Below are positions 217-39,389 of a stretch of DNA of 46,369 nucleotides, one piece after another. The notes beneath the pieces are model-generated. The model had not been told where the DNA came from and searched no databases. It saw only the letters and a program-made list of their open reading frames with translations. The position numbers were made by a program, and so were the translations under genes. The number at the start of each line of letters is the position of its first letter. Position 1 is the stretch's first letter. The DNA lies in assembly GCA_031271265.1 (NCBI GenBank), contig JAISWB010000068.1, positions 1 through 46,369 on the forward strand, read 5' to 3'. Source of the stretch: Desulfovibrio sp. GTDB taxonomy: Bacteria; Desulfobacterota; Desulfovibrionia; Desulfovibrionales; Desulfovibrionaceae.

Positions 217-2597
217 TAACACATGCAGTCGTCCGGCGCAAGGACGTAAGGGTCGGCTTTGTACAGGTCAAGACCGACCGTTTTGTCATAGAGGCTGCTG
301 TTACTCAGTACGGCGACCTGACCGCCCGGCCCGGCGGGCCGGACGGCTCCGGCCCGCTCCAATGCTGCAAAATCCCGCTCGTAGAGTGACACGCTGTATC
401 GCTGCAGACGACGCAATACAGGTCGGGCGTTGTCGCCGAATTTCAGCGAGTCGAGACGCGTCAGCAATTCTTTGGCTGTCGCATCGTACGGGATGATGAG
501 ACCTTGTGTCAGCGTATCAATGAGATGAAAGTCTTTCTCGATTTCCCGAAAAGGAAAATCTGCTGTATTTGCCGTTGCTCCGATACGTTCAATAATATTT
601 TTTTCATCCAACTTGCCTTCGCCGCTCTGCCAATAAAGTTCTAAAAAATAATCCCGCACGGCATCCGGATGCAGCAAATCCGCCTTATGACGCTCGGCAA
701 CCGAACGCGCGGCTTGGGCGGAGCGACTCATGATGCCGGTCGGCAATCCCGATTCAGGCCGAAAAACATAGACTCGTCCTATTTTCATCAGGCCTTCACG
801 ATTGCATCTGCCGGCCGCCTGGGCAACTGAATCCATACCTGCCTCGGCGCGGTAAACCACAGGAAAATCCAGGTCAACGCCGGCTTCGACAAGTGTTGTG
901 CTTACCACGCGGCACGGTCGCCCTTCATTCTTATACGCCGCAAGGGCGGCGTGGATGTCTTTAAGCGCCTCAGTCCGGTGCTGTGGGCACATCAGCGCGC
1001 TTAGATGAAAGAGTTCTTTTTGCTCTCGGGGCACGTTTTGCGATAGCGCTGCATGGTCACGCAATCCGTCAAAAATTTTTCGGGCCATACGCCTCGTGGG
1101 TACGATGCAGAGCACGCACGGTTCCGCCGCTAGGCGTTCAACAAGCGCAGCATCGGACAACTCACCGATATGATGTATCTCCACACGCTTTAACGATGCA
1201 TGCAAGGCTTTCGGATCGGGAACGATTTCCCGAACTCCGGTAAGACCGTTCGCAAGTCCTTCGCTGTTGCCGTCCGGTGCGTCGGAAGGCGCGTTCAATG
1301 CCGGTTGAGTTGCCGTGCAGAGAACGACACTCGCCGCGTAACTTGCCGACAATTCACGTATTGCTTCAATGCATGGGCGCAGGTACGGCAAGGGCAGCAT
1401 TTGCGCTTCATCCAGAATGATAACGCTCTTGGCCAAGTTATGCAGCTTGCGGCAACGCCCGGCTCGTGCGCTGAAAAGGCTCTCGAAAAACTGCACAGAT
1501 GTAGTGACGATGACCGGTGCATCCCAATTTTCCGTGGCGGGGTGCGGACTGTCATCGTCATGTTCTTTCGGAAGCACAAGATTGCTGTGGTGCTCAATCA
1601 CGAATTGCCCGCCGGCATCGTCCAGCGCTTCGCGGAATACATCGGCATTTTGCTCAATAATGCTCGTATAGGGTATGACGTAAACTATCCTGTCAAGGTT
1701 TCGGCGCTCCGCATGCGCCAAAGCAAAGGCCAGGGAAGAGAGGGTTTTGCCGCCCCCCGTGGGCACGGTCAGCGAAAACAGACCGGGCTCCTGTTCTGCT
1801 GCTGCCCGGCAAAACTGCAACACTTCCGATCTGGTCCGGTTGACATCAAGTCCCCGAATCGCCGCCGAATACTGCAATGTTTCCGCTTTGATCCGATTAA
1901 CATCGCCGGGTTGCGCCTCTGCGGATTTTTTTTGCAGGAAAATGTCCAATCGAGCGCGCAGCTCATGTATACCGGGATAGGTCCGACGGGCCGCACGCGT
2001 GCGGTCCTGCTGGTCCCCGCCCGCTTCCGCGTCCAAACGATCCGCATCGACAAGGCAGGAAAAAAGCATGCGCAGAAAGAAGGCAACACGGAAACCGACA
2101 TTGCGTGATTGTGTGTCAAAGGGGTATGCATTGCCATCCGGATAGTCGCACATATCCGCCCCAAGGCATTCCCGCCAGGCCGAATAATCCTCTATTTTGC
2201 GGCGTGCGGGCTCAAGTCTGCGCTGCAAGGTGCCTGCTTCGGAGGATTGATCTTTTGAACGGCCGTCCGGCAGTCCCGCATGGTGTCCCGCAATGCAATA
2301 AGCAAGAAGCTTTCTCGCGTACCACAGCGCAGAGCCTGCCAAAGAAACATCGGACATCGCCTGACGTGCGCCGGCAGTGGAATGATCCACCCGTATATTT
2401 TCTCCCCGCACACGGCGTTGAAACTTTTCGCTTGCCTTGCCGATGTCGTGCAGCAAACCGAGGATGCGCCCCCAGGCGGCCGCGTCGAAACGATCGGCAA
2501 ACTCCGCCGCGTGTTCGCCCACATTGAGCAAATGGTCGCGCAATGTTTGTCCCGGTCTGGCCAGCAACATTGTCTTCTGCCTGCTTGTGTCGCACAT
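216..2597 (-). CDS. cas3: CRISPR-associated helicase/nuclease Cas3
   Basis: The product is a 793-residue Cas3, the HD nuclease plus SF2 helicase that degrades DNA recruited by a type I Cascade. An N-terminal HD domain has LLHDIGK (about residue 45) and the helicase follows with Walker A VPTGGGKT, the box II sequence ILDEAQ, motif III CTATQ and a C-terminal VEAGVDLDF...AAGRCNREG block. I chose the ATG at 2597 because GGAGG lies 9 bp upstream; the frame stays open further upstream but without such a site. The length and absence of a long C-terminal extension suit subtype I-C better than I-E, but this is uncertain. No other cas gene is visible: the next leftward sequence is an insertion sequence that begins at the stop codon, so cas5/cas8/cas7 may be separated or lost. 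Confidence 0.93.
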   Translation of the reverse strand: MCDTSRQKTMLLARPGQTLRDHLLNVGEHAAEFADRFDAAAWGRILGLLHDIGKASEKFQRRVRGENIRVDHSTAGARQAMSDVSLAGSALWYARKLLAYCIAGHHAGLPDGRSKDQSSEAGTLQRRLEPARRKIEDYSAWRECLGADMCDYPDGNAYPFDTQSRNVGFRVAFFLRMLFSCLVDADRLDAEAGGDQQDRTRAARRTYPGIHELRARLDIFLQKKSAEAQPGDVNRIKAETLQYSAAIRGLDVNRTRSEVLQFCRAAAEQEPGLFSLTVPTGGGKTLSSLAFALAHAERRNLDRIVYVIPYTSIIEQNADVFREALDDAGGQFVIEHHSNLVLPKEHDDDSPHPATENWDAPVIVTTSVQFFESLFSARAGRCRKLHNLAKSVIILDEAQMLPLPYLRPCIEAIRELSASYAASVVLCTATQPALNAPSDAPDGNSEGLANGLTGVREIVPDPKALHASLKRVEIHHIGELSDAALVERLAAEPCVLCIVPTRRMARKIFDGLRDHAALSQNVPREQKELFHLSALMCPQHRTEALKDIHAALAAYKNEGRPCRVVSTTLVEAGVDLDFPVVYRAEAGMDSVAQAAGRCNREGLMKIGRVYVFRPESGLPTGIMSRSAQAARSVAERHKADLLHPDAVRDYFLELYWQSGEGKLDEKNIIERIGATANTADFPFREIEKDFHLIDTLTQGLIIPYDATAKELLTRLDSLKFGDNARPVLRRLQRYSVSLYERDFAALERAGAVRPAGPGGQVAVLSNSSLYDKTVGLDLYKADPYVLAPDDCMC

Positions 2598-2850: not shown

Positions 2851-2879
2851 TTGACACGCGCCCCGCCGCCATGTAAGCA
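2851..2879 (+). promoter_or_regulatory. Promoter candidate of the aromatic amino acid operon
   Basis: A perfect TTGACA (2851-2856) is followed after 17 bp by TAAGCA (2874-2879), a poor -10 match. Transcription from here would begin a few bases before the leader peptide ribosome binding site at 2893. The -35 box and position are good, the -10 is weak, so an activator or another promoter may be involved. Confidence 0.45.
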
Positions 2880-2906
2880 GCCGAAAACATCAAGGAAAAC
2901 GACACC

Positions 2907-3020
2907 GTGAAGACCCGTGCCCCGGCCGCCCGGCCCGCAAATGCTGAAATTCAACCGAACTCCGTGTTCCGGTTTTATTTTTTCTACAGCGGAACCCGCG
3001 GCGACGAGGGACGTGTCTGA
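2907..3020 (+). CDS. Phe/Tyr-rich leader peptide of the aromatic operon (37 aa)
   Basis: A GTG at 2907 follows AAGGA (2893-2897) at a normal spacing and opens a 37-codon frame ending TGA at 3018-3020. Codons 20-28 read VFRFYFFYS, so six of seven consecutive residues (21-27) are Phe or Tyr. Such a run placed before an intrinsic terminator and just upstream of the genes that make Phe and Tyr is the hallmark of a ribosome-mediated attenuator, like the E. coli pheA leader. The rest of the peptide (Ala/Pro/Arg rich) shows no domain. It is in a different frame from the downstream synthase gene. Charged tRNA-Phe/Tyr shortage would stall the ribosome around 2967-2987. The reading is mine from sequence; no expression data are available. 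Confidence 0.72.
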
Positions 3021-3054
3021 CAGGTTTGGTACAACGTCACCCAAGGGCCGCGGG
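2995..3054 (+). promoter_or_regulatory. Antiterminator pairing of the Phe/Tyr attenuator
   Basis: CCCGCGGC at 2995-3002, seven bases after the last Tyr codon of the leader peptide, is perfectly complementary to GCCGCGGG at 3047-3054. The second segment contains most of the 5' arm of the downstream terminator, so the two structures exclude each other. GACGT (3009-3013) and ACGTC (3034-3038) can also pair. A ribosome stalled at the early Phe codons leaves 2995-3002 free; one stalled at the last Tyr would cover it, so the exact geometry needs folding. Confidence 0.6.
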
Positions 3055-3080
3055 CTGAATGCCGGCGGCCCTTTCTTTTC
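3045..3080 (+). terminator. Intrinsic terminator (attenuator) before the ADTH synthase gene
   Basis: GGGCCGC (3045-3051) pairs with GCGGCCC (3065-3071). After one G-G mismatch, GGC/GCC extends the stem around a TGAAT loop, and TTTCTTTT follows at once. It lies 25 bp after the leader peptide stop and 80 bp before the first structural gene, the expected place for an attenuator. Confidence 0.7.
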
Positions 3081-3159
3081 CGCCGGCGGCGGCGCAAGGG
3101 ACGGGCGACGGGAACCGGAGCCGGGGACATCCCTTTCCCCATACCCAAGGAAAACAGCC

Positions 3160-3972
3160 ATGCAGATGCAGTTTATGCAGATCGGCAAATCAATCAGGAT
3201 GGAAAGGCTCTTCAACCGCAACACCGGCAAAAGCATCATCGTCCCCATGGACCACGGCGTTTCCGTGGGCCCCCTCGACGGTCTGGAACATATGACCAAG
3301 GCCGTCACCGATGTCGCGGAAGGCGGGGCGAACGCCGTACTCGGCCACAAGGCCCTCGTGCGTTGCGGACACCGCAAAAGCGGACGCGACCTCGGCCTCA
3401 TCCTGCACCTCTCTGCCGGCACCGAGCTTTCTCCGTACCCCAACCGCAAAACCCTGACCGCCTCCGTTGAAGACGCCGTTTGTCTCGGCGCCGACGGCGT
3501 ATCCGTCCACGTGAATCTCGGCGATACCTACGAGGCGGAAATGCTGGCAGATTTCGGGCGCGTGTCCCGCGAGTCGGAGCGCTGGGGCATGCCGCTCCTG
3601 GCCATGGTCTACGGACGCGGTCCGAAAATTCCGGACAGCCTCGCCCCGGAAATCGTGGCCCATTGCGCCCGCGTGGGAGCCGAACTCGGCGCCGACGCGG
3701 TCAAGGTGCCGTACACCGGAGACATAGACAGCTTCAGCTTCGTCGTTGAATCCTGCTGCATCCCCGTACTCATCGCCGGCGGACCCAAAACCGGCACCAC
3801 CAGGGAATTTCTGCAAACCGTCCATGACGCGATCAAAGCCGGAGCGAAAGGTTTGTCCGTCGGGCGCAACATCTTCCAGCATCCCGAGCCGCGCAGGCTG
3901 ATGAGCGCCCTCAACGGCATCGTGCACGAGAACATGAGCGTCGAGCAGGCATGCGCCCTTATCGGCGCATAG
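3160..3972 (+). CDS. 2-amino-3,7-dideoxy-D-threo-hept-6-ulosonate (ADTH) synthase
   Basis: This 270-residue class I aldolase-like protein makes ADTH, the first step of the archaeal-type route to 3-dehydroquinate that replaces DAHP synthase and AroB in Desulfovibrio. Recognisable segments are [13 protein letters not shown] near the N-terminus, [10 protein letters not shown] in the middle, the Schiff-base lysine region [17 protein letters not shown] and a GLSVGRNIF phosphate-binding loop. ATG 3160 is preceded by AAGGA; an in-frame extension back to 2917 crosses the leader peptide and terminator and is rejected. It is the first gene of a three-gene operon with dehydroquinate synthase II (13 bp gap) and pheA. 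Control by the upstream Phe/Tyr attenuator is inferred. The fold resembles fructose-bisphosphate aldolase class I, but the partner gene decides the function. Confidence 0.9.
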
Positions 3973-3985
3973 ACGGAGACCGCAC

Positions 3986-4975
3986 GTGAAACCGATACTC
4001 TTCAAGGCCGTACCCTTCGTCAAAAAAGACGTCACGCGCGCCCTGGAAGCCGGGGTCGACGGCCTGATCGTCCCCGCGGAACACCTTGCCGCGGCGTCCT
4101 CCCTTGCCCGCTGCATCGTGCTGGACGCCGGCGCCCTCGAAGAAACGGAACTGCTCTCCAGGGACGACGAAGAAAGGGCCGCCGCCTGCCTCGACAGGGG
4201 GCAAACCGTGTTGCTGCGCAACAGCCGCCTGATCATCCCCGTGGAAAACCTGCTGGCGCGCGGGCAGGCCGCGGGCAAAAAAGGCCTTCTGGCCGTCGAG
4301 GTCATCACTCCCGAAGCAGCGGCCACCGCCGCGGGCATCCTGGAAAAAGGCGCCGATTCTCTCGTCGTGCCCGGCGCGGGACTGGACAGGCTTCAGGAGA
4401 TCATCGCCGTGATCCGGCAGACCGACGGCGTGCTGTCTCTCGCGGAAGCCGTGATCACAGAGATACGCAATGCAGGCATGGGGCACAGGGTCTGCGTGGA
4501 TACTCTGTCCGTGTTCCGCAGCGGACAGGGGATGCTCACCGGCAATTCCGCCGCCTTTACTTTCCTTGTGAACGCGGAAACCGAAGCCAGCGAATACGTC
4601 GCCTCGCGTCCCTTCCGCGTCAACGCTGGCGCTGTACACGCCTATGCCCTGGCGCCGGGCGATGCGACCGCGTATCTTCAGGAACTGCGCGCCGGGTCCG
4701 AAGTGCTGACCGTAGACCATGCGGGCAACACCGGCCGCGCCGTAGTCGGCCGCGTCAAGGTGGAGCGGCGTCCCATGCTCTATGTGGGCGCGAAGGTCGG
4801 TGACAGGGAAGGCGGCATATTTCTGCAAAATGCCGAAACCATACGTCTGGTCCGTCCGGGCGGACAAACGGTGAGCGTTGTCGACCTCGCGCCCGGCGAT
4901 ACCGTACTCTGCCGGCTCGACGATGCCGGACGCCACTTCGGCATGCGCATCAAGGAAGATATCCGTGAAGAATGA
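3986..4975 (+). CDS. 3-dehydroquinate synthase II
   Basis: The 329-residue protein belongs to the DHQS II family, which oxidatively deaminates and cyclises ADTH to 3-dehydroquinate using NAD. The family-typical GLLAVEV, RVCVDTLS, GMLTGN, FRVNAGAVHAY and VLTVDHAGNTGRAVVGRVKVERRPM stretches run in the expected order, and the length is normal for the family. Translation starts at GTG 3986 with GGAG just upstream, 13 bp after the ADTH synthase stop. Its last codons overlap the proposed pheA start. With its upstream neighbour it forms the standard two-enzyme entry into the shikimate pathway of these bacteria. Confidence 0.92.
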   Translation: MKPILFKAVPFVKKDVTRALEAGVDGLIVPAEHLAAASSLARCIVLDAGALEETELLSRDDEERAAACLDRGQTVLLRNSRLIIPVENLLARGQAAGKKGLLAVEVITPEAAATAAGILEKGADSLVVPGAGLDRLQEIIAVIRQTDGVLSLAEAVITEIRNAGMGHRVCVDTLSVFRSGQGMLTGNSAAFTFLVNAETEASEYVASRPFRVNAGAVHAYALAPGDATAYLQELRAGSEVLTVDHAGNTGRAVVGRVKVERRPMLYVGAKVGDREGGIFLQNAETIRLVRPGGQTVSVVDLAPGDTVLCRLDDAGRHFGMRIKEDIREE

Positions 4976-38238: not shown

Positions 38239-39389
38239 AGGGCGCCGGCGGCCTTCATGCTGCGCAGTATGGAGATGAGGTCGCGCGGGCCGGCGCCCAC
38301 GGAATTGAGGGCGTCCACCAGTTCCTGCAGCGTCGCGCCTTCGAGAATGTTCAGGTTGCGCAGTTCTTCGGTCGCGGTGAGGTCCGTGCTCGGCGTGACC
38401 ACGGTTCTGCCGCCGCTGAAGGGTCCCGGCTGCGAAACGTCCTGGTTTTCCTGCACAGTGACCTGAAGGTTGCCGTGCGCGACCGCCACGCGCGAAATGC
38501 GCACGTCGCGCCCGAGGATGATGGTGCCGGTCTTTTCGTCAACAACCACCCGCGCGGCCGAGTCCGGCGTGATTTCTATATTTTCAAGCGACGCCATGAG
38601 GGGCACCATGTTGCCCCGGAAATCCGAGGGGATGTCCAGGTTGATGGTGGCCGAATCCACGGGCTTGGCGAAGGTGCCGCCCAGGGCCTTGTTGATGCGC
38701 TCCACAATCTGGTTGGTGGTGGAAAAGTCCGGGCTGTTCAGACTCAGGGTCAGGTGATCCTGGCTGTTGAATTCAAAGGGCACGGCGCGTTCGACAACGG
38801 CGCCGCCGGGTATCTGCGCCACGGTGCTGACGTTCTTCTGGGCCTGGGCCTGGGCGCCCGTCACGGAAAAACCGCCCACGGCCAGCGCGCCCTGGGCCAG
38901 GGCATAGACCTTGCCGTCCACGCCCTTCAGGGGCGTCTGGACCAGAACGCCGCCGAGCAGGCTCGTGCAGTCGCCCAGAGAAGATATGGTCACGTCCAGG
39001 CGCGTGCCGGGTTTGGCCGAAACAGGCATGCGCGCCGTAAGCATGACGGCCGCCACGTTTTTGGGTTTCATCTGTTTCATGTCCACGCGCACGCCCATTT
39101 TTTCCATCATGTTGACCATGGTGCGCATGGTGAAGGCAGAATCTTTCTTGTCGCCCGTGCCGGAAAGGCCGACGACCAGACCGTAGCCGGTGAGCTGGTT
39201 GTCGCGCACCCCGCTGAACGTGGCTATATCCTTGATGCGCACGGCCGCGGCATCGTGCGGCGCGAGCAGGAGCAGCGCGACAAACGCGACCAGGAAACGG
39301 ACGGGCCTTGCCCGAAGCATGCGCAAATACGCCGCGGGGAATATGCCGCTCCGCTTGCGCGCGGGGATCATACGGAGTGGTGAAGCCAT
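38214..39389 (-). CDS. flgI: Flagellar P-ring protein FlgI
   Basis: This 391-residue periplasmic protein forms the P ring around the rod in the peptidoglycan layer. The signal peptide has [22 protein letters not shown] (core about residues 30-50), then the mature start [26 protein letters not shown], which is diagnostic, as are [20 protein letters not shown] and [18 protein letters not shown] at the end. ATG 39389 has GAGGAG upstream; the frame extends to 39500 without a site. flgG, flgA and flgH, usual upstream partners, are not in the window: this gene is first in the visible operon. Confidence 0.95.

Follow-up and report, generated by a model that had tools for sequence, protein, structure and literature searches.

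A predicted phenylalanine/tyrosine attenuator before the ADTH synthase operon of a Desulfovibrio, and related elements in the Desulfobacterota

What decides whether the genes for aromatic biosynthesis are read in Desulfovibrio? The window analysed here is a 46,369-nucleotide stretch of Desulfovibrio sp. DNA. It forms contig 35 of a genome of 2.5 Mb, and the relatives of that genome belong to the Desulfovibrionaceae. The window carries an operon for ADTH synthase, DHQS II and PheA, and a leader region on the plus strand sits between cas3 and the first of these genes:

3160–3972, plus strand: 2-amino-3,7-dideoxy-D-threo-hept-6-ulosonate synthase (ADTH synthase), first gene of the operon proposed to be regulated; TIGR01949, 375.7 bits (cut-off 299)
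3986–4975, plus strand: 3-dehydroquinate synthase II (DHQS II); PF01959
4980–6146, plus strand: pheA, chorismate mutase-prephenate dehydratase with an ACT domain; PF01817, PF00800, PF01842; exact start uncertain
219–2597, minus strand: cas3, Cas3 helicase-nuclease with HD domain (type I CRISPR), divergent from and adjoining the aromatic operon

The leader region holds a terminator, which can end only transcripts entering ADTH synthase, since cas3 points the opposite way. From its sequence the element is very probably a ribosome-mediated transcription attenuator through which the ADTH synthase-DHQS II-pheA operon responds to charged tRNA-Phe and tRNA-Tyr.

Leader gene and alternative helices in the window

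The upstream part of the element consists of a short gene with its translation signals and a putative promoter:

2851–2856, plus strand: candidate −35 element TTGACA of a putative promoter; GCTTGACACG is the same in the closest relative despite diverged flanks
2892–2897, plus strand: AAGGAA, Shine-Dalgarno-like ribosome-binding site of the leader gene, 9 nt 5' of the start codon
2907–3020, plus strand: leader peptide gene of 37 codons, start GTG at 2907, stop TGA at 3018–3020
2967–2987, plus strand: control codons TTC CGG TTT TAT TTT TTC TAC, read FRFYFFY (residues F21–Y27), six of seven being Phe or Tyr

Both AAGGAA and the leader start are kept in the closest relative (locus L002), with GTG in the window and TTG in L002. 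An open reading frame with at least six F/Y/W in eight codons occurs only once on the two strands of the window; a weaker aromatic one (5/8) lies at 38767. Three features count against an attenuator: the GTG start, the Arg codon inside the aromatic run, and the promoter. For the last, a search upstream of the leader for a full sigma-70 consensus found none apart from the conserved TTGACA, and the candidate −10 element, TAAGCA at about 2874–2879, is weak. The ADTH synthase frame is itself open over 2917–3972, across the leader (in another frame) and the terminator, and similarly long open frames are found in several relatives; gene callers could therefore start the gene too early and so hide the attenuator.

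Downstream of the aromatic run, the RNA can adopt alternative helices:

2925–2938, plus strand: possible segment 1, a G+C-rich 5' leader segment that pairs with the segment-2 region in single-sequence folds only
2995–3002, plus strand: segment 2 (antiterminator 5' strand), CCCGCGGC, within leader codons T30-R31-G32
3008–3041, plus strand: middle hairpin, with the leader stop codon in its 5' arm
3043–3079, plus strand: intrinsic terminator, stem 3043–3051/3065–3073, inner stem 3053–3055/3061–3063, U tract 3072–3079
3047–3054, plus strand: segment 3 (antiterminator 3' strand and terminator 5' arm), GCCGCGGG, defined by folding and covariation

The strand CCCGCGGC pairs perfectly with GCCGCGGG over exactly 8 bp, and the minimum free energy structure of 2987–3055, folded alone, is the antiterminator enclosing the middle hairpin (−29.8 kcal/mol). 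The fold of 3042–3080 is the terminator, at −26.7 kcal/mol (z −5.1, with none of 200 shuffles as good), and TTTCTTTT follows. Antiterminator and terminator share 3047–3051 and are therefore mutually exclusive. When everything up to 3032 is removed, mimicking a ribosome at the stop codon, the terminator alone forms. When the whole untranslated leader is folded, the terminator appears together with a pairing between the G+C-rich 5' segment and the segment-2 region, a fold that would correspond to the default state of classical attenuators. The terminator form is favoured over the antiterminator at equilibrium, which was also counted against an attenuator; antitermination must therefore be kinetic, as in known attenuators. 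The earlier note had claimed a 37-codon leader with six Phe/Tyr in seven codons, an 8-bp mutually exclusive antiterminator and a strong terminator, in the right order and spacing; its coordinates and codon count are correct, and the alternative folds bear out the helices.

The arrangement suggests how the switch would work. A ribosome would follow the RNA polymerase as the leader is transcribed. With Phe or Tyr in short supply it would stall in the aromatic run at 2967–2987, just 5' of segment 2, leaving 2995–3002 free to pair with segment 3 (3047–3054) as this emerges and to close over the middle hairpin; the antiterminator so formed would block the terminator, and the operon would be read. 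With Phe and Tyr plentiful, the ribosome would reach the stop codon at 3018–3020 and cover part of segment 2 and an arm of the middle hairpin, so that segment 3 would be free, the terminator at 3043–3079 would form and transcription would stop near 3076–3080. If the leader is not translated, its G+C-rich 5' part may sequester segment 2, and termination would likewise follow.

Conservation and covariation across the phylum

Loci encoding ADTH synthase were gathered from the family, from named genomes, from the class and from the phylum, and a leader was scored as an open reading frame with at least six F/Y/W in eight codons no more than 500 nt upstream of ADTH synthase. Such a leader is present in 71 of 95 loci, as against 0.4% of 3740 same-length stretches elsewhere and 0.5% of dinucleotide shuffles. 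The loci without one include ADTH synthase-like paralogs that have no aro genes behind them (L054, L057, L059, L063, L064) and truncated contigs. Nitratidesulfovibrio, the genus of Nitratidesulfovibrio vulgaris Hildenborough, has the same element, with NYYFWYFFSYGEARG. Beyond the Desulfovibrionales, 25 of 30 sampled loci carry a leader (examples are YYSYFWWYYITGLPG, FYFSYYYFTGPG and YYFYFWYYWFGRGLP), and these 25 cover 11 families of the phylum; in a twelfth family the best leader has five aromatic codons in eight. Of 120 genomes of the class, 118 contain a match to a covariance model of the element, and many of them contain several, the loci not being independent events. The element is thus not limited to the Desulfovibrionaceae: it is found in the Desulfovibrionales and in 11 sampled families elsewhere in the phylum.

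The pairing of segment 2 with the terminator 5' arm is preserved while its sequence changes. In the Desulfovibrionales, the codons after the aromatic run mostly read A/T-C/R-G (GCC TGY GGY or GCC CGY GGY), and their reverse complement, GGCCGCAGGC or GGCCGCGGGC, forms the terminator 5' arm. Both sides have changed together in Mailhella (GTGCCTGTGGTT with AACCACGGCAC), in locus L049 (CCTGTGGCC with GGCCACAGG) and in the Desulfobacterales (CGGTCTGC with GCAGACCG). Overall, the pairing beats shuffles (p ≤ 0.05) in 50 of 70 loci, with a Fisher combined p of 8e-52 that overstates independence because the loci are related; the other 20 fall short partly because shuffles of a G+C-rich segment 2 pair well and partly, in a few loci, because the terminator finder chose the wrong hairpin. 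Spacing is regular in the 50 loci: segment 2 usually starts about 5–6 nt past the last aromatic codon and most often ends 11–16 nt before the stop codon. When a locus's own segment 2 is ranked among all others for the same terminator, the preference is modest (median rank 17%), because segments 2 are alike within the Desulfovibrionales; the contrast between groups is clearer, at about −20 to −22 kcal/mol for own and −16 to −17 kcal/mol for swapped pairs.

In an alignment of 42 loci, 91.4% of antiterminator cells are paired, against 36–45% when the strands are slid, and there are 19 double changes and a covariation score matched by none of 500 shuffles. For the terminator, 97.8% of cells are paired and 7 of 11 pairs show double changes. 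The most informative antiterminator pair, columns 43 and 123, is UA in 24 loci, CG in 10, UG in 6 and GC in 1, with one mismatch; column 123 is mostly unpaired in the terminator (it faces a mismatch in most terminators), and the pair appears to matter mainly for the antiterminator. Its CG state occurs in about five separate lineages on the ADTH synthase tree (the window's pair, L007, L034, L048 and the L014-L025 group). The middle hairpin reaches z < −1.5 in 33 of 75 loci. Conservation of the leader codons in relatives, a check that the earlier note had named, was thus found, with leader, antiterminator and terminator kept and covarying; its proposal of a complete Phe/Tyr attenuator before this operon is strongly supported by the leader, the exclusive helices, the covariation and the operon logic.

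Variants occur in several groups. Loci of the Desulfobacterales (L075, L088, L091, L093-L101, L107) have the leader followed by two tandem hairpins upstream of ADTH synthase, the second of which, AAGGCCGTGGAG...CTTCACGGCCTTTTTT, lies outside the antiterminator. In one family (f41; L236-L238, L240) the U tract is on the second tandem hairpin only. In another (f9; L103, L222, L227-L231, L233-L235) the leader often ends in ...CASTFKxx, and CTTTTAAAAG, found both in the leader end and just 5' of the terminator, may lengthen the antiterminator.

Control codons and the genes they precede

The aromatic run is kept in the leaders of relatives, most of which hold Trp codons besides those for Phe and Tyr, and this bears on what is sensed. 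The attenuator of the window could report on aromatic amino acids generally (Phe, Tyr and, indirectly through chorismate supply, Trp) and not on Phe and Tyr specifically. In the closest relative the run reads FWFYFFY, against FRFYFFY in the window, a difference of one base (TGG for Trp against CGG), and many trp-free operons keep a Trp codon. However, the window's leader has no Trp codon, and the trpE operon of its genome has a separate Trp leader, so that we consider the general reading unlikely here, if better placed than the other alternatives below. When Trp was counted in the best 12-codon stretch of the entire leader, all 10 operons that run on into trpE had one or two Trp codons, whereas trp-free operons had mostly none or one (p 0.007, kinship ignored).

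The trpE of the window's genome lies on another contig (G000:C37:25963-26095; L158, L135), behind its own Trp leader, MILTTATTLYFGDAPMIWRAFLWCGHTRGPVEAVR (IWRAFLW), with a terminator of the same design as that of the aro attenuator. The aro covariance model finds this element independently (32 bits, E 2e-4), and several relatives in the window's genus likewise have a separate trpE with its own Trp leader (WRGFWW and similar). Because of this separate leader and the single-base difference between FRFYFFY and FWFYFFY, the break-up of the operon seems to have been accompanied by a shift of Trp sensing to trpE. The shared T/A-R/C-G plus GGGCCGCRGGC design suggests that the trpE leader was copied from the aro element.

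In at least four genera a sodium:solute symporter gene (PF00474) lies behind a near-twin of the attenuator, whose leader is almost Phe-only (FFFFFSFRFF..., FFFFFSFRFFRSACGLGVC):

L197:554-2158, symporter, PF00474
L209:640-2235, symporter, PF00474
L205:1148-2776, minus strand, symporter, PF00474
L164, L165, L170, L175, L179, L193, L196, L198, L200, L201, L202, L204, L206, L208, L210: further symporter loci

The nearest named families are PutP-like, at scores below their cut-offs. The simplest reading is that the symporter is a phenylalanine importer under Phe attenuation, a role predicted from its leader. Other matches of the model lie before additional copies of the ADTH synthase gene, with RFFFFFSFYF among their leaders. 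Three loci (L191, L195, L199) have an isolated ADTH synthase copy behind a Phe-rich leader, and the gene that comes next is uncharacterised and lipoprotein-like (SCSRYDAVRLARAAATG...), not an aro gene.

This match between codons and genes also weighs on a second alternative, a terminator-antiterminator switch worked by the binding of a protein or a small molecule (a riboswitch, a TRAP-like system or a T-box), to which the short open reading frame would be irrelevant. Two exclusive helices would suffice for such a switch, and it need not belong to an Rfam family. We nevertheless hold it to be very improbable: the aromatic codons are kept in register right before segment 2; leader codons track the genes (Trp for trpE, Phe for the symporter, Trp in all trp-containing operons); and, outside the leader codons, conservation across genera is limited to the helices. 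Rfam covariance models, including the T-box and leader families, gave no match in the window or in eight other loci (E ≤ 1 / 0.1, in a search run without a positive control). A sub-threshold CPEB3 ribozyme match on the minus strand was taken as chance. Lastly, a chance open reading frame before a constitutive or unrelated terminator is scarcely credible: short frames are common and the ADTH synthase frame is itself open from 2917, but chance yields a leader at well under one locus in a hundred in the controls, as against leaders, with covarying helices, in most relatives.

The preferred reading, a ribosome-mediated Phe/Tyr attenuator in the window, can then be placed in a wider frame. We think it probable that a phylum-wide, recurrently copied attenuator family is a main regulator of aromatic amino-acid supply in the Desulfobacterota. 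It would use one design (in the Desulfovibrionales, an A/T-C/R-G segment 2 with a GGGCCGCRGGC-type terminator) with retuned control codons: those for Phe, Tyr and Trp before the ADTH synthase operon, those for Trp before trpE operons that have split off, and those for Phe before a sodium:solute symporter, which would then be a phenylalanine transporter so far unrecognised.

Known attenuators and the reach of the element

The pheA and trp operons are classical cases of ribosome-mediated attenuation. Like the enterobacterial pheL attenuator, the window element has an aromatic-rich leader peptide, a terminator just before the gene, an exclusive antiterminator and a chorismate mutase-prephenate dehydratase gene in the operon it is predicted to control. 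Unlike pheL, it would also control ADTH synthase and DHQS II, and it has Tyr codons besides Phe (in relatives also Trp). With no Rfam match, no sequence-level kinship with pheL is shown. In the trpL attenuators of Proteobacteria, too, a stalled ribosome exposes a terminator-blocking segment, and the trpE leaders WRGFWW and IWRAFLW are of this kind; in the aro element, by contrast, segment 2 lies inside the leader coding sequence, directly past the control codons.

In a relative whose operon likewise begins with ADTH synthase, DHQS II and pheA, an attenuator has been predicted before. Song et al. 2005 (PMC1173090, Table 7) list, from Merino's prediction database, a putative attenuator before the D. 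vulgaris aroA'-aroB'-aroQ-pheA-aroF-tyrA-[trp] supraoperon. Their listing gives no leader peptide (the words "leader peptide" are absent), amino-acid assignment or test of phylogenetic depth, and the authors name the phylogenetic depth of such attenuators as future work. The earlier note knew of no report for the Desulfovibrionaceae; given this putative attenuator, that statement is correct only in part. Rodionov et al. 2004, on delta-proteobacteria, leave an attenuator before the ADTH synthase operon unmentioned, and passages of a 2016 survey that treats regulons of Proteobacteria assign RNA-level control of trp and pheA to gammaproteobacteria. For a leader peptide in Desulfovibrio, a search of the open-access literature yielded no paper other than Song et al. 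2005, and older subscription work, such as comparative attenuator surveys, may be missed by it. The mechanism is old; the leader peptide, its phylum-wide spread, the retuning of its codons and the symporter branch look new within the open-access literature.

For a large group of sulfate reducers, the element would be a concrete means of regulating the alternative entry to aromatic biosynthesis (ADTH synthase/DHQS II). It also extends leader-peptide attenuation, with its control codons defined, across a phylum for which only one earlier structural prediction was found. The covariance model makes the element searchable. Its leader codons may serve as a readable label of gene purpose: they point to a phenylalanine-specific sodium:solute symporter, and they would trace how control of trp split off as operons broke up. 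In the organism itself, the operon should be read only when phenylalanine or tyrosine runs short.
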